Virus record (IMG/VR): IMGVR_UViG_3300006033_000029
Span: 1-61,769 of that record
Reading direction: 5' to 3' (one strand)
Source of the DNA: a virus
DNA length: 61,769 bases
A program made the translations under genes and the position numbers. Shown here in pieces: positions 12,017 through 48,528 of the stretch (position 1 is its first letter; the number at the start of each line of letters is the position of its first letter). The notes under the pieces are model-generated. The model saw only the letters and a list, made by a program, of their open reading frames with translations. It searched no databases and was not told the origin of the DNA.

Positions 12017-12261
12017 TGGCCGACCTTGAAGCTGATCTGCGCGCTGCCGCGAGGAACGGCTTCCTTGATCTCAGCCTGCATCGTCGGCCGACCGGCGAAT
12101 GGGAAGCTGCGTATCGCACGACCGACACTCTCGAAGTCTACCGCCACGAGGCGAAGGACATCGTTGAGGCGATCGGCAAGGCGGTGCGCAGCGGCACTCG
12201 AGTCGTAAAGGCCGTCTCACCGCAGCCGAAGCGGCGGCGTGACACGGAGGATCTCGCGTGA
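12016..12261 (+). CDS. Small protein with RRRDTEDLA tail (81 aa)
   Basis: ATG 12016 overlaps the gapR stop. The body (FLDLSLHRRPTGEWEAAYRT, then AKDIVEAIGKAVR) looks like a small alpha/beta domain. It ends PKRRRDTEDLA, a tail shared with the next gene and with those ending at 14316 and 16877. The tail's codons also provide GGAGG for the next start (GTG 12258), which overlaps the stop. Function unknown. Confidence 0.65.
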   Translation: MADLEADLRAAARNGFLDLSLHRRPTGEWEAAYRTTDTLEVYRHEAKDIVEAIGKAVRSGTRVVKAVSPQPKRRRDTEDLA

Positions 12262-12485
12262 TCGACATCTCTTTCGCCTTTGGTGACAAATACCAAGGTG
12301 TCTCCTTCTGGAAAGCCTCGGACGGTCGCGTTCAGTGTAACATCAAGAATAACGGCGGCTTCACCATCGACTACGGCGACACTCCCGAAGAAGCCTGGGA
12401 GAACGCACGGGCTCAGGCCGAGGGACGCAAGGCGCGACCGAGCAGCCCGAAGAAACGCCGCCGCGACACAGAGGATCTGGCATGA
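12258..12485 (+). CDS. Small protein with RRRDTEDLA tail (75 aa)
   Basis: GTG 12258 (GTGA overlap; GGAGG 7 nt upstream). The body alternates hydrophobic and polar residues in strands (IDISFAFGDKYQGVSFWKA, GFTIDYGDTPEEAWENARA) and resembles the preceding protein in layout. It ends PKKRRRDTEDLA. Compared with the preceding gene, the nine tail codons differ at six third positions with no amino-acid change, so the tail is conserved at the protein level. Confidence 0.65.
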   Translation: MIDISFAFGDKYQGVSFWKASDGRVQCNIKNNGGFTIDYGDTPEEAWENARAQAEGRKARPSSPKKRRRDTEDLA

Positions 12486-13027
12486 ACCGCCAAGGCACAT
12501 GGATGCAGACCGTCAGCGGGAAGGCTTTCTGGCCGATCGACCCGCGCCCCGAGGAACTGGACATCGGCGACATCGCTCATGCCCTCAGCATGATGTGCCG
12601 CTACGGCGGGCACTGCAGCCGTTTCTACAGTGTCGCCGAGCACAGCGTGCTGATGGCATCCTATGCTCTCGCCAACCACGGCGAAGAGGTAGCGAAGATC
12701 GCTCTGATGCACGATGCGACCGAAGCGTATCTGACAGACGTGATCCGGCCGATCAAGGCGCACCTCTCCAATTACAAGGAGATCGAGGGGCGTCTCTGGC
12801 TTTGCGTCGCCGAGCGTTTCGGTCTGCCGAGGGTAATCCCCGATGAAGTACAGCACCTCGACAACGCGATCCTCCGTGACGAGATGAGCGCGCTGCACAT
12901 GCCGCCGCCGATGGATTGGAACATCCCGTCCGAGGGTCTCGGCGTGCATATCGCTGGCTGGGAGCCGTCACTCGCCAGGTGGGCCTTCCTCGGCATGTAC
13001 TATCGGCTATGGGGTGAGACATGCTGA
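12482..13027 (+). CDS. HD-domain phosphohydrolase (181 aa)
   Basis: ATG 12482 overlaps the preceding stop. The motif ladder is that of HD hydrolases: a first His in FYSVAEHSVLMA, the pair HD in LMHDATEAYLTDVIRPIK, and a later Asp in VQHLDNAIL. The layout matches the phage/YfbR-like group that acts on nucleotides such as dNMPs. It probably adjusts nucleotide pools along with ThyX and the deaminase downstream. Substrate is inferred. It overlaps the methyltransferase start. Confidence 0.8.
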   Translation: MNRQGTWMQTVSGKAFWPIDPRPEELDIGDIAHALSMMCRYGGHCSRFYSVAEHSVLMASYALANHGEEVAKIALMHDATEAYLTDVIRPIKAHLSNYKEIEGRLWLCVAERFGLPRVIPDEVQHLDNAILRDEMSALHMPPPMDWNIPSEGLGVHIAGWEPSLARWAFLGMYYRLWGETC

Positions 13028-14316
13028 TCACTCGTCCCTGGGCGCTTTACAACGAGATTGACGAATATGCAGCAGACTGGCTCGAAAACCTCATTCGACT
13101 TGGTGTCATCGCTCCGGGTGTTGTCGATCGCCGAAGCATCGAAGATCTTCGAGGAGATGACCTCCGAGGATTTCGACAGTGCCATTTCTTCGCTGGCATC
13201 GGAGTTTGGAGTTACGCCCTCCGTTGCGCGGGCATCCCGGATGACGCTCCTCTTTGGACGGGAAGCTGCCCCTGCCAACCTTTCAGCGCGGCAGGCAAAG
13301 GAACAGGGATGGATGATGAGCGGCACCTATGGCCTACCTGGTTCCACCTCATCCAGCAGGAACGCCCGCCACGCATCTATGGAGAGCAGGTTGCGAGCAA
13401 GGACGGCCTCGGTTGGCTCGACCTTGTACTCGCTGACATGGAAGCAGAGGACTACTCCATCTGGGCGGTCGATACCTGCTCTGCGGGCAGTGGGGCGCCG
13501 CATATCCGACAGCGGCTCAGGTTCTTCGCCTACGATCTACGATCTTCCACAGGTCGGCTGGAACACACCGGCGATGACCGATCACAAGGGCGGCTACTTG
13601 GGCGGCAGGATGCGCAACGGGGAACTCTCGACGGATCGTCTGGACGTGACAGCGCAGTTGACCGGATGGCCAGCAGTGACGACCATGACGGGCGGTCAGA
13701 CCTCTCGCAGCGGCGACCGGAAGAACGAACCGCTGATGGGCGGGGCAGCGCAGCTTTGCGGATTGCCGACCTGCACGGCGACGGATGCAATCAAGGGCGG
13801 CAACGTCTCACCTCGGCCGGGGATGATGGGTTTGTCGGAAACGGTGCCCTTGGCAGGCTGGCCGACGCCAGCGGTAGCGGACGACAACAACTCCCGATAC
13901 TCGCCAGAAGCGATGGAGCGGGAAGCCGCGCGGGAGAAGAAGGGGTCGAGCCTCGGGACCGCAACCTACATTCAGATGACCCACGACGGCCCGGCCCGAC
14001 TAACGGCTTCTGGCGAGATGCTGATTGGCTCTTCTGCCGGGATGGAAAGTGGAGGCCAGTTGAATCCGGCACATTCCCGCTGGTTGATGGGTCTGCCTTC
14101 CGTATGGGATCAGGCGGCGCCTTTGAAGGCAAGTCGCGGCAAGGGATGCTCAGATGCTACGGAAACGCGGTCGACCTCCAAGCAACGATCGACTTCATCG
14201 AAGCCACTCTCGAACCGGACGTCATTGACGCTTTACGAAGTGGCTCTGATGAGCCTTGCCAATCACCTTTAGAGTTATATACTCGCAGCAGACGTGACAT
14301 CGAGGATCTGGCATGA
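13021..14316 (+). CDS. DNA cytosine-5 methyltransferase (431 aa)
   Basis: Transfers a methyl group to C5 of cytosine in DNA, probably for protection from restriction. Motif I is [12 protein letters not shown] (residues 56-67), motif IV is [12 protein letters not shown] with catalytic Cys85, and the C-terminal [14 protein letters not shown] fits motif IX/X. Between residues 175 and 340 the sequence is low-complexity and rich in D, R, G and S, because the same DNA codes a second long protein in the +1 frame (13067-14272). The protein ends SRRDIEDLA, the recurrent tail. A promoter for the next unit lies inside its 3' end. Confidence 0.85.
13067..14272 (+). CDS. Overlapping ORF within the methyltransferase (about 401 aa)
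   Basis: A second open frame covers almost the whole methyltransferase in another reading frame. The sequence looks protein-like, with repeated GWPTP, GWNTP and GWPAV units each followed by T/D, and later [18 protein letters not shown] and [16 protein letters not shown]. From memory, closely similar text is seen in phages beside C5 methyltransferases, so it is probably a real conserved product. Start is uncertain: ATG 13067, TTG 13058 or a later Met (MTLLFG). Its long length against chance and the low complexity of the other frame argue for double coding. Confidence 0.6.
14256..14283 (+). promoter_or_regulatory. Promoter with operator in the spacer
   Basis: TTGCCA (14256-14261), 16-bp spacer, TATACT (14278-14283). 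The spacer contains ATCAC CTTTAGA GTTAT (14262-14278), nine of ten half-site bases. It lies inside the 3' end of the methyltransferase and would start RNA near 14290, just ahead of ATG 14313. Binding at the operator should occlude polymerase. Confidence 0.75.
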
Positions 14317-15133: not shown

Positions 15134-15258
15134 TGGTCATCTGTTTCAAGGGGCACATGCTCTGCTTCGCCCAAGACGCCCGGTCGGCAACCCAAGACCT
15201 CGCCTTGGCTCTGCTCAGCGCCATCCAGCAATCCTATCCCGAGAGGCTCGCCAAATGA
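15133..15258 (+). CDS. Small protein upstream of thyX (41 aa)
   Basis: ATG 15133 overlaps the preceding TGA and the stop overlaps the thyX start (ATGA). The peptide begins MVICFKGHMLCFAQ and continues as an amphipathic helix (ATQDLALALLSAIQQ). No family recognised. The exact overlaps at both ends are the main evidence that it is translated. Confidence 0.5.
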   Translation: MVICFKGHMLCFAQDARSATQDLALALLSAIQQSYPERLAK

Positions 15259-16145
15259 CCATCGCCGCCAAAGTGATCGCCCACAGTCGAGCGGACGCGG
15301 GTACGCCCGATCTGATCACGCTGCAACTGCGATACCCGCGTTTCATCCATGCTGAGTTCATGACCCACCGGGTCTTCTCGCGCAACGCCAGCAGCAGCCG
15401 GGCCATCCCGGTCGAGCGGATGATCCGGGACGTGATCGATGATCCGGCGATGCCGGTGCGCTGGGGCGCCAACCAGCCGGGGATGCAGGACGCGGGGGAT
15501 CACGATGCCTTGGTTCTCTGCGGCGCTTCTGTCGCCGAGGTGGATCACTATGGACCATACGTCTCGCCCGATCAGGCGTGGTGCTACGCTCGGGACAAGG
15601 CCGTCGAGATGGCGCGGAACTTCGCCATGGCAGGCTACCACAAGCAGGTCGTGAACCGGCTGCTGGAACCCTTCGGTCACATCAGCGTCGTAGTCACCGC
15701 GACCGAGTGGGATAACTTCTTTGCGCTGCGCTGCCACCCGGATGCCGATCCTACGATGCGGGCGCTGGCTGAGGCGATGCGGGATGCGATTGCCGCTTCG
15801 AAGCCGGAAATCGTTGATGGTGGGTGGAGTTGGCACCTTCCCTATATCACCGAAGAAGATTTGCGATCGGACGTTGTGCAGAGCAAGTTGCAGCCCGAAG
15901 CAAACCGACTGCTGGCCATGATCAGCGCCGCCCGCTGTGCCAGGGTGTCCTACCTGAACCACGACGGCAGCAGCCCTGACATCGACAAGGACCTCGCACT
16001 AGCCAAGAGGCTACTGGAGTCGAAGCATATGTCTCCGTTCGAGCATCAGGCCGAAGCGTGCGCCAACGGCGTCAAGAAGACCTACCTGACCAGCAACCTG
16101 CGCGGCTGGTATCAGTTCCGCAAGATTATCGAGGTCGCAGCATGA
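15255..16145 (+). CDS. thyX: Flavin-dependent thymidylate synthase
   Basis: Makes dTMP from dUMP with FAD, NADPH and methylene-tetrahydrofolate. The ThyX motif appears as THRVFSRNASSSRA (residues 37-50), close to RHRxxSxNExSxR. The 296-residue length is the longer phage type (host ThyX is about 230-260). Conserved ends include HMSPFEHQAEA and LRGWYQFRK. It sits between small genes and dCMP deaminase, whose product dUMP it uses, so the two form a pathway pair. Confidence 0.93.
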   Translation: MTIAAKVIAHSRADAGTPDLITLQLRYPRFIHAEFMTHRVFSRNASSSRAIPVERMIRDVIDDPAMPVRWGANQPGMQDAGDHDALVLCGASVAEVDHYGPYVSPDQAWCYARDKAVEMARNFAMAGYHKQVVNRLLEPFGHISVVVTATEWDNFFALRCHPDADPTMRALAEAMRDAIAASKPEIVDGGWSWHLPYITEEDLRSDVVQSKLQPEANRLLAMISAARCARVSYLNHDGSSPDIDKDLALAKRLLESKHMSPFEHQAEACANGVKKTYLTSNLRGWYQFRKIIEVAA

Positions 16146-46295: not shown

Positions 46296-46981
46296 AGCAC
46301 CACCTCTTCGTCCATGTCACCGGCCAATGGGTGAGTCTCGTCGGCCTCGGCCATACGGATTGCATCAGTGTAGATGTCCTCTTGGAGCCCATCCATGACC
46401 GCTCTGATCAGTTTGTATTGATCGGGCGTGATGCCAGTCATCCGTTCGAGTTGATCGGGGACGAGTTGGAGACGCTCGCGGATCGAGAGCAGGTACTCGC
46501 TGAACTTCGCCAGCACCTCTGACGTGTGCCAAAGTTCCCCTTCTTCCTGCATCACGCGGTTGCGGGCGCGTCTGGCTTGCCACAACTTGAGGCGCAGATC
46601 GTCGGGGAGATCATCGTCCTTGATGCTGCGTAAGAACTCCGCAGTGTCCACCTTCGGGTCGACCAGGTATGCAGCGGCGTCGGCCACCAAATAGAGCGGG
46701 TTGCCGTGCGCCCCGACGTCGATCGGGCGGCAGTCCTTCAGGCGGCGCTTCACCTGGTGCTCAGTCATGCCGAACACGAGCGCCAACCAGCGAACCGGCA
46801 CACCCTGCTTGATCTGGTAGACGCCACGGTAGGAGAGGTCCACGTCGCCATCTTCTTCGCCCTTCGGAGGTGGCAGCAGGGAAGGGTCGATCTTGCGCGG
46901 TCGCCCAGGACCACGGCGCGGCGGTGCCGTCACGACGCCCGCCAATTCGTCAATCTCGCGGCGGCGGTCTTCAGGCATCAT
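46292..46981 (-). CDS. Terminase small subunit (229 aa)
   Basis: ATG 46981 (TGATG overlap with the methyltransferase stop); TTG 46984 and ATG 46978 are possible. The N-terminus is basic with GPGRPRKIDP; residues 55-90 form a helix-turn-helix (VYQIKQGVPVRWLALVFGMT, EHQVKRRLKDCRPI) resembling Nu1-like DNA recognition; the C-terminal half is helical (KLWQARRARNRVMQEEGELW). It recognises the packaging site and recruits the large subunit, whose gene overlaps. Confidence 0.82.
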   Translation of the reverse strand: MMPEDRRREIDELAGVVTAPPRRGPGRPRKIDPSLLPPPKGEEDGDVDLSYRGVYQIKQGVPVRWLALVFGMTEHQVKRRLKDCRPIDVGAHGNPLYLVADAAAYLVDPKVDTAEFLRSIKDDDLPDDLRLKLWQARRARNRVMQEEGELWHTSEVLAKFSEYLLSIRERLQLVPDQLERMTGITPDQYKLIRAVMDGLQEDIYTDAIRMAEADETHPLAGDMDEEVVL

Positions 46982-48528
46982 CAACAGATTTCCCAGATGT
47001 TGAAGGCCCGCCCGATGCGCCTGGCTTCAACACTAATGCTGTTCGGCTGCACACCGGCGATGCTGACGATACGGTTGTTCATCATCTCCACATAGTCGGG
47101 GTTCAGTTCGCACAGGATGCCCCTGCGCCCATGTTTCAGAGCCACGCCTGCGGTCGTGCCGCTGCCGCCGAACGGGTCCAGCACCGTGCCGCCAGATGGG
47201 CAACCGGCAAGGATGCACGGCTCTATCAGGTCGGGCGGGAAGGTCGCGAAGTGCGCACCCTCGAAGGGCTTGGTCGTGACGGTCCAGACGCTGCGGCGGT
47301 TGCGCTTTGTGAAGTCATCACCGTCACGACGCTGGCCGGACTTCCATTCCGCACGACCATCGAGCTGCTTCGCACCGGCGCTGGTGTACGGACGCCGTGG
47401 ATCGTTTGTGACGCTCGGCTCCTTAATCGCCTCGGCATCGAAGTAATACCTCGGCGACTTCGAGAGCAGGAAGATGTACTCGTGCGCCTTGGTGCAGCGG
47501 TCGCTCACGCTTTCCGGCATCGGGTTCGGCTTGTGCCAGATGATGTCCTGTCGAAGGAACCAGCCCGGCTCGAAAGCGGACGGCGGCTCGATCAACCACG
47601 ATGGTATGTCCACAGATGCACGCTGGTTGAGCGAGGAAAGCAGATCAGTCAGCACCTTCCTCTTGTCGCGAGTGGCGTCACGCTGCGGCGAGTGCCCTAG
47701 CCTTTTGGCATCAGCCATCAGTAAAAGCAGGTTGTAGGCCACCATCGCTTGGCGCTTTTTCTCGATCAGATAGGGGTAGATTTCCCGCAGGATCAGCGTC
47801 TTGTTTTCGATCCCATGAACTATCCATCGCCAAGTCGGACGCTTGCCAATATGGCCGTCGCCGGGAACATCATGCTCACTCCGGCTGGCTGGCCAGATGC
47901 GCGCGGCTTCTTCCAGCAGGGCGCGGGAACTGTTCGTTATGGTGATGTGAACGCCGGTCCTCGGGCGCCCATCATCTGCCCGAACGTGGTGAAACCCGCA
48001 GATGGTCCCTTCTCCGTCGATCATTGCCGCGAGCCAAACACGGTCACGTTCGCGAGTGATCTTGCCTGTGTAGTATGGATCGCGCAGAGCCGTTGCGACT
48101 GCCCACGGGATGCCGATCAGGTCTTTGTGCTTCAGCCCGATGGCGGGGGCGTTGCGTGTAGGGTTGTATCCGTCGTGACGGCCGCGGTTGACGTTCGCAC
48201 CATCAGCAGCCTTGCCGCTTTTCCCGCCTGCCAGCGTTTCGGCGGGCTGGTGAGTGCCGCCGCGCGCAGCCGCATGGGCGCTGTAGCTATCCCCCAGGTT
48301 CAGCCACAGCGTACCGTCATCGCGCAGCACGCGCCGCACCTCGCGGAACACCTCGACCAGCCGCGCCACGAAGGCGTCGGGCGTTGCCTCAAGCCCGATC
48401 TGGCCCTCGTGCCCGTAATCCCGCAGACCGAAGTAAGGTGGGCTGGTGACGCAGGTATGGACGCACTTATCAGGCAGATGACGCAGCGATTCGATGCAGT
48501 CGCCGATGGAAATCAGGACGCTACTCAT
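46981..48528 (-). CDS. DNA methyltransferase with in-frame LAGLIDADG insertion
   Basis: A 515-residue protein. Methyltransferase motif IV is TSPPYFGLRDYG (residues 28-39) and motif I is LDPFGGSGTTAG near the C-terminus, the beta-type order of N4-cytosine/N6-adenine enzymes. Between IPWAVATALR and WFLRQDIIWHKPNPMPES an extra segment of about 172 residues carries WLAAMIDGEGTI, a LAGLIDADG motif. No intein splicing blocks flank it, so it probably stays in the protein as an inserted domain. It may protect phage DNA and also act as a homing or nuclease element. Confidence 0.85.
   Translation of the reverse strand: MSSVLISIGDCIESLRHLPDKCVHTCVTSPPYFGLRDYGHEGQIGLEATPDAFVARLVEVFREVRRVLRDDGTLWLNLGDSYSAHAAARGGTHQPAETLAGGKSGKAADGANVNRGRHDGYNPTRNAPAIGLKHKDLIGIPWAVATALRDPYYTGKITRERDRVWLAAMIDGEGTICGFHHVRADDGRPRTGVHITITNSSRALLEEAARIWPASRSEHDVPGDGHIGKRPTWRWIVHGIENKTLILREIYPYLIEKKRQAMVAYNLLLLMADAKRLGHSPQRDATRDKRKVLTDLLSSLNQRASVDIPSWLIEPPSAFEPGWFLRQDIIWHKPNPMPESVSDRCTKAHEYIFLLSKSPRYYFDAEAIKEPSVTNDPRRPYTSAGAKQLDGRAEWKSGQRRDGDDFTKRNRRSVWTVTTKPFEGAHFATFPPDLIEPCILAGCPSGGTVLDPFGGSGTTAGVALKHGRRGILCELNPDYVEMMNNRIVSIAGVQPNSISVEARRIGRAFNIWEIC
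47569..48084 (-). mobile_element. LAGLIDADG domain inserted in methyltransferase
   Basis: Approximate borders: residues 149-320 of the methyltransferase. It begins RDPYYTGKITRERDRVWLAA, carries one LAGLIDADG helix (AAMIDGEGTIC), ITITNSSRALLEEAARIWP and a helical end (EKKRQAMVAYNLLLLMADAK). Only one motif copy is evident, so action as a dimer is expected. There is no Cys/Ser at the left end and no His-Asn at the right, so it is not an intein. Confidence 0.75.

Follow-up and report, generated by a model that had tools for sequence, protein, structure and literature searches.

The question raised by this locus is why a gene for a C5 cytosine methyltransferase should be overlapped, over nearly its whole length, by a second long open frame on the same strand, and what the product of that second frame could do. 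The locus lies in a virus record of 61,769 bases, the whole of which is here called the window. The original prediction had claimed two overlapping open frames, and both are found (Table 1). The open stretch of the +1 frame in the window is 414 codons long, and its candidate starts are a TTG at 13058 and ATGs at 13067 and 13157, among which the choice is uncertain. We use class 1 for the window's type of locus and class 2 for C5 enzymes with the canonical motif order. Comparison of the sequences makes it probable that the locus encodes a C5 cytosine methyltransferase of two chains, which would be read from the two overlapping frames.

Table 1. Coordinates of the two overlapping frames and of their parts, numbered along the window
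Feature	Position	Strand	Basis
C5 cytosine methyltransferase frame (frame 0, proposed catalytic chain)	13021..14316	+	ORF, 431 aa, ATG start
+1 overlapping frame (proposed second chain)	13058..14272	+	ORF, 404 codons from TTG
ATG, candidate internal start of the +1 chain	13157..13159	+	39 codons upstream of the motif IV anchor and close to the internal start of relatives
Motif I (FAGIG), frame 0	13189..13203	+	alignment A3; profile alignment to motif I of canonical phage C5 enzymes
Motif IV (PCQPFS, catalytic cysteine), frame 0	13270..13287	+	near-invariant, 45 sequences
Helix and beta hairpin, +1 frame (SMESRL...)	13352..13492	+	AlphaFold2 block, pLDDT 66-89; conserved columns
Motif VIII (APHIRQRL), frame 0	13495..13518	+	alignment A3
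Middle region: WxTP units (+1) / disordered low-complexity tract (frame 0)	13543..13980	+	omega; pLDDT 33-40
GWPTP unit of the +1 frame, R-L-A-D-A in frame 0	13856..13870	+	
Motif IX, +1 frame	14054..14107	+	near-invariant; profile-profile match to in-frame motif IX of single-chain relatives
Motif X, frame 0	14149..14199	+	alignment A3; profile match to the GNAVVPQ end of class-2 enzymes

That so long a second frame would hardly be open by chance had been part of the original prediction, and this was borne out. None of 300 synonymous shuffles of the window's methyltransferase kept a +1 frame of that length (mean 170, maximum 332), and when the same comparison was made in 53 representatives, 0 to 48 of 300 shuffles matched the +1 length. 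The representatives were taken at 80% identity from the 81 unique sequences among 89 loci, with the cut or frame-broken loci L005, L009, L010 and L012 and the window's own copy, L093, set aside. The +1 similarity was higher than in all 30 synonymous shuffles for 52 of 52 class-1 relatives, and the methyltransferase similarity was in its turn higher than in all shuffles that preserve the +1 protein, again in 52 of 52, with protein identities of about 32-54% in both frames among the relatives. Class 2 was also above this shadow null, in 66 of 66 pairs among the matches listed, and a control with neighbouring genes stayed near the null, with values above the maximum in 1 of 24 (+1) and 2 of 24 (+2) comparisons. 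The alignments leave out L030 and L083, which have long insertions, and alignments A1-A4 leave out L059 too, which reaches a contig end.

Selection was estimated as omega in each frame from isolated single changes, in 40 of 64 independent pairs at a protein identity of at least 0.70; the two-frame omega was preferred to codon-position counts, which are ambiguous in the middle region. For the catalytic part, omega is 0.30 in the +1 frame (bootstrap 0.21-0.42) and 0.07-0.08 in frame 0 (0.05-0.10 for the estimate of 0.08), and for the end of the gene the values are 0.20-0.37 (0.24-0.55 for the estimate of 0.37) and 0.10-0.19 (0.13-0.27 for the estimate of 0.19), respectively. The middle region has an omega of 0.11 in the +1 frame (0.07-0.15), against 0.63-1.08 in frame 0 (0.39-1.02 for the estimate of 0.63); the estimators that build on few events are loose there, and give 0.19 (0.09-0.77) for the +1 frame and 1.08 (0.53-4.27) for frame 0. 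A fictive +2 frame gave dNN/dNS of 1.9-4.7. Frame-by-frame analysis of purifying selection had been put forward as a check, and it finds both frames constrained in the catalytic part and at the C-terminus. Both proteins are therefore selected, with the +1 protein as the one that counts in the middle. What is seen at this locus is purifying selection in each frame that is not explained by the other, which is the mark of dual coding on one strand.

Frame 0 belongs with the C5 methyltransferases. It matches PF00145 (E 5e-9) and phrog_363 (E 2e-68), and has a Rossmann methyltransferase fold with motifs I, IV, VI, VIII and X; the PCQPFS peptide is what we take to be motif IV, and motif VI reads GEQV instead of ENV. 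In the structural model, residues 1-180 are mostly above pLDDT 80, and M.HaeIII and M.HhaI are the best Foldseek matches (E 3e-7). Residues 188-334 are predicted to be disordered, with pLDDT below 50, and evolve almost without constraint, in agreement with the earlier remark that the methyltransferase frame is poor where the overlapping frame is rich. A C5 enzyme is also expected to have motif IX and a target-recognition domain in one chain, and frame 0 was found to lack them by pattern search and in the model: a motif IX-like pattern is absent from the window's frame 0 and from 69 of 69 class-2 relatives among the matches listed, 64 of which have a motif X downstream in frame 0. The frame opens with YNEID...VDxRSI, similar to motifs II and III, ahead of FAGIG (window 13021-13290), and the gap from motif I to motif IV is about 20 residues. 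This suggests that the motif order in the window's methyltransferase may be permuted, II-III-I-IV, with a profile support of E 2.8e-7 for motif I and a weak one for the motif II part (probability 6%).

The +1 protein has matches in two PHROGs families that carry the label DNA methyltransferase, phrog_31772 (E 1e-31) and phrog_1008 (E 6e-26), and it gave no match in Pfam or NCBIfam, nor any in PDB by profile. Its AlphaFold2 model is poor (mean pLDDT 53.9, pTM 0.27). The sole well-modelled part is the helix and hairpin (GSTLYxLTWKxRxTPSGRxI), which is followed by the WxTP units and then by the motif IX end. A fold search with this low-confidence model was uninformative, giving four viral proteins at E <0.001, of which one is labelled methyltransferase, one is uncharacterised and two are nameless. 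Matches of the +1 protein to bacterial proteasome activators (E 0.5-0.9) were rejected as noise. The recurrent GWPTP and GWNTP units that had been pointed out in the overlapping frame are a real feature of it: the +1 frames of 155 unique relatives hold 478 WxTP units, where 10 synonymous shuffles gave 59.5 on average and 67 at most. At 306 of these 478 sites frame 0 reads [LMV]A[DNHY], and the RLADA-type repeats of annotated methyltransferases are the places where the +1 frame reads GWPTP. The C-terminus of the +1 chain aligns with the in-frame motif IX of a group of enzymes typified by locus L235, in a profile-profile match of short length and moderate strength (35 columns, probability 69%, E 4.6e-5), and phrog_1008 matches a class-2 +1 protein (E 1.8e-33) as well as L235's in-frame motif IX (E 1.6e-10).

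We propose that the frame-0 chain would make the catalytic Rossmann domain with motifs I-VIII and be closed by motif X, and that its stretch between motifs VIII and X may be for the most part the other gene's shadow. The +1 chain would start inside the same gene and supply motif IX together with the WPTP-repeat region, which most likely recognises the DNA target, and the two chains would then associate into one active enzyme that methylates. The phage is likely to use this enzyme to modify its own DNA against restriction by the host, and the enzyme is likely to have originated from a single-chain enzyme in which the recognition segment slipped to the +1 frame, with a compensation before motif X. 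The original prediction was that the second product could help or control the methyltransferase. Conservation, the frame-specific selection and a frame 0 without motif IX support the former, and also support the more specific reading that the +1 product could be a part of the enzyme; control by a separate regulator is a less likely reading. Two things go beyond that prediction, namely that the second frame appears to carry motif IX and that the arrangement appears to be general in phages.

It could be argued that the +1 protein is no part of the enzyme but a product of its own (a regulator, for example, or an anti-restriction protein or DNA-binding partner), and that the DNA is shared for compactness. 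The protein has no recognisable domain beyond its motif IX-like end, and its conservation could serve a function of its own, but we find this explanation unlikely: the frame-0 chain is without motif IX (0 of 69 among the matches listed) and without a modelled recognition domain, motif IX alternates between the frames in the relatives of L235, and a +1 frame without the methyltransferase was never met, as all 80 loci retrieved with the +1 profile (the best 80 of about 580-600) have both. Among the best 80 relatives of L235, motif IX lies in frame 0 in 27 and in +1 in 48, in both frames in none, and it was not found in 5. The +1 frame of the 27 with a frame-0 motif IX still exceeds the null, with a median of 175 against 83 codons, and motif IX is therefore not the sole job of the second chain. 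Three loci of the L235 type (L307, L331 and L344) have motif IX in the methyltransferase frame. Their +1 frame still codes for the WPTP part but ends ahead of motif IX, which suggests that the +1 frame's own job is recognition. L235 itself, from the same contig as L307, was considered as an ordinary single-chain enzyme and rejected, since its +1 frame still encodes the WPTP part.

The breadth of the arrangement was followed in several sets of loci. With tblastn, 199 phage records were matched by the +1 protein and 401 by the methyltransferase, and both queries match 93 of 93 loci, the window included, always in the +1 relation. Between motif IV and motif IX the +1 frame is uninterrupted in 16 of 16 phage records, in 78 of the 80 best-scoring relatives chosen by the methyltransferase frame alone, in 77 of the 80 loci fetched by the +1 profile (the remaining 3 are cut at contig ends), in 77 of 80 bacterial-genome loci and 2 of 2 plasmid loci, and in 4 of 6 loci of a further set, where the other 2 are fragments without a methyltransferase match. 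The two exceptions among the methyltransferase-chosen relatives are without the motif IX pattern only, and have 290 and 350 open codons; these 80 are the best-scoring ones, and more distant relatives could therefore differ. Three of the relative scans, that with the +1 profile among them, cover the best 80 of about 580-600 each, and another the best 80 of 134. No stop was found between motifs IV and IX in the +1 frame in any of these sets. Relatives with a stop in the second frame and an intact methyltransferase, named in the original prediction as the cases to look for, were sought, and none was seen among the 80 relatives (78 open) and the 16 phage records (all open). The shortest enzymes also keep the +1 frame, which is the case for Bas75 (265 aa), KLEP18-1 (273 aa), Aragogtheria (279 aa) and pangalan (284 aa).

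Class 2 was found through a DNA pattern for NPxWVEWLMG[FY]P, which was chosen independently of any methyltransferase. The pattern gave at least 120 stretches, and the 80 listed loci, with 81 ORFs, were analysed. Among the matches listed, 71 of the 81 ORFs overlap a C5 ORF by at least 300 nt, all of them in +1, as scored by tblastn (a narrower regular expression for motif IV gave 51 of 81). The others are 2 in the same ORF, 2 of other kinds and 6 without a C5 match because the motif is near the contig end. Paenibacillus phage HB10c2 and Stenotrophomonas phage SBP3.1phi2.1 share the layout, the motif of the latter being read by eye, whereas in E. coli Dcm and mycobacteriophage Graduation it is frame 0 that contains motif IX, and the +1 frame is ordinary, with Graduation's motif likewise read by eye.

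In 103 of 149 unique class-1 loci there is an ATG 43 codons upstream of motif IV, and a Shine-Dalgarno sequence is found at 72 of these 103, against 3 of the 46 with a non-start codon at that place and 533 of 3311 in the background. In the window, GAGGAG directly abuts the ATG at 13157, a spacing that is not ideal; the start and Shine-Dalgarno analysis gave no well-spaced Shine-Dalgarno for the window's +1 start, and with the purine run in this place the window's own start therefore stays uncertain. We infer that the +1 chain is translated. A programmed +1 frameshift could also be imagined, by which the frame-0 part with motifs I-VIII would be continued in one polypeptide by the recognition part and motif IX from the +1 frame, with an unshifted product that has motif X. 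The +1 frame does continue exactly where the recognition domain and motif IX of a normal enzyme would sit, and the relation is +1 in 82 of 82 loci and, among the matches listed, in the 71 of 81 pattern ORFs, but the catalytic part, which precedes any useful shift site, already shows selection on the +1 frame, the internal ATG and its Shine-Dalgarno are conserved, and the shifted product would be without motif X. The apparent fusion in L242 does not help such a mechanism either, as reading it in three frames reveals a slip of frame between motifs VI and VIII; it was rejected as a natural in-frame fusion and is therefore not used as fusion evidence. We consider a frameshift very unlikely. That only the methyltransferase is real, and the +1 frame a compositional artefact or the shadow of a conserved gene, is scarcely credible even with long open alternative frames being common in high-GC genes and many in the window, as it is contradicted by the shadow nulls, the neighbour control, omega, the WxTP excess and the openness null.

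The reading that we prefer, a methyltransferase of two chains from overlapping frames, would not be without precedent. In M.EcoHK31I the gene of the large chain also contains the small chain, in an alternative frame, and here too the second chain would come from another frame (+1) of the same gene. The sections that deal with M.EcoHK31I (YGGCCR; Lee, Kam and Shaw 1995) in PMC3404938 and PMC3439449 present it as a natural two-polypeptide C5 methyltransferase, and that of PMC3404938 gives the large chain motifs I-VIII and X, with motif IX only on the small chain. To judge by its motifs, the pair in the window is alike in layout, with motifs I-VIII and X but not IX in the large chain, and motif IX in the second. 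The second chain is however larger here (about 265-450 codons in class 1) and overlaps nearly the whole catalytic gene, it has WPTP repeats in a strongly selected middle, and it is found in phages and prophages of many hosts. The same section of PMC3404938 has the recognition domain of M.EcoHK31I predicted in the large chain, whereas we place recognition in the +1 chain, and this counts against our proposal. By analogy, the simplest reading is that the window's pair would work like M.EcoHK31I, its closest precedent. Another two-polypeptide C5 enzyme, M.AquI (CYCGRG), is described in PMC3404938 with motifs IX and X and half of the variable region on the second chain, and it is similarly divided into a catalytic and a recognition-containing chain, but in the window the two genes overlap and the catalytic frame keeps motif X. 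The part of PMC11855218 on ShiLan also describes a further frame lying within phage methylase genes, that of an out-of-frame HNH endonuclease; that one is however a mobile insertion encoding a homing endonuclease, and is neither a part of the enzyme nor as long as the whole gene.

The two proteins are already present in PHROGs, frame 0 as phrog_363 and +1 as phrog_31772 and phrog_1008, and the class-2 examples that were scanned match the same families. All three are labelled 'DNA methyltransferase' and stand separately in the match tables, with the overlap unmentioned. Both overlapping frames are annotated in Escherichia phage K1ind3, as 'C-specific methylase' and 'Mte8-like protein', and in Xanthomonas phage PhiXhv-28, as two 'DNA methyltransferase' CDS; PMC5582158 names Mte8 once, in a list, and the word 'overlap' does not occur in it. 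The usual annotation in other phages and prophages is one of the two proteins, and no account of a phage-wide overlap was found in the openly licensed literature.

We are inclined to go further, and think the chances somewhat better than even that a large share of the C5 methyltransferases of phages and prophages, permuted-looking as well as canonical and in phages of Proteobacteria as well as Paenibacillus, are obligate two-chain enzymes with one DNA encoding both. The +1 chain would then be the specificity chain, with WPTP recognition and motif IX, and the annotated 'LADAxGxG' filler would be its out-of-frame shadow. If this is true, many phage 'DNA cytosine methyltransferase' entries are half an enzyme, and the annotated ORF would be expected to be inactive when cloned alone. 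DNA viruses would also be seen to have a dual-coding gene pair that is long and very widespread; it would be a natural system for the coevolution of two interacting chains in one sequence and for specificity change under constraint, and a concrete class of genes that gene callers suppress.

Some minor observations concern single records and the surroundings of the locus. The +1 frame is annotated without the catalytic frame in PMG1 (CDS 2513-3274 of L005), and it is the only frame annotated in Microcystis phage Mwe-Yong1318-1 (L470), judging from the motif content of the CDS. Neither frame is annotated in full in Komagataeibacter phage phiKX1 (L181), where both have a long insert near the C-terminal end; the +1 frame reads CEKCGDPHWRLHVHHISENRSDNHPENLKTLCPSCHKLSH there, and by eye the insert resembles an HNH homing endonuclease that could have been inserted in the overlapping gene. 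Elsewhere in the window, a thymidylate synthase of the ThyX type (PF02511) is encoded at 15255-16145, downstream of the overlapping pair, and the minus strand encodes another DNA methyltransferase at 46981-48528, an N6/N4-type enzyme (PF01555, E 4e-45). Three nearby genes end in a nearly identical peptide, RRD[T/I]EDLA (12230-12261, 12462-12484 and 14293-14315), and at two of these three junctions there is a repeated DNA cassette with GAGGA and the ATG of the next gene. The cassette gave 2 matches at 3 or fewer mismatches, against 0 expected, and the first junction is visible at the protein level only; apparently, the cassette is a coupling or ribosome-binding element that has been reused.
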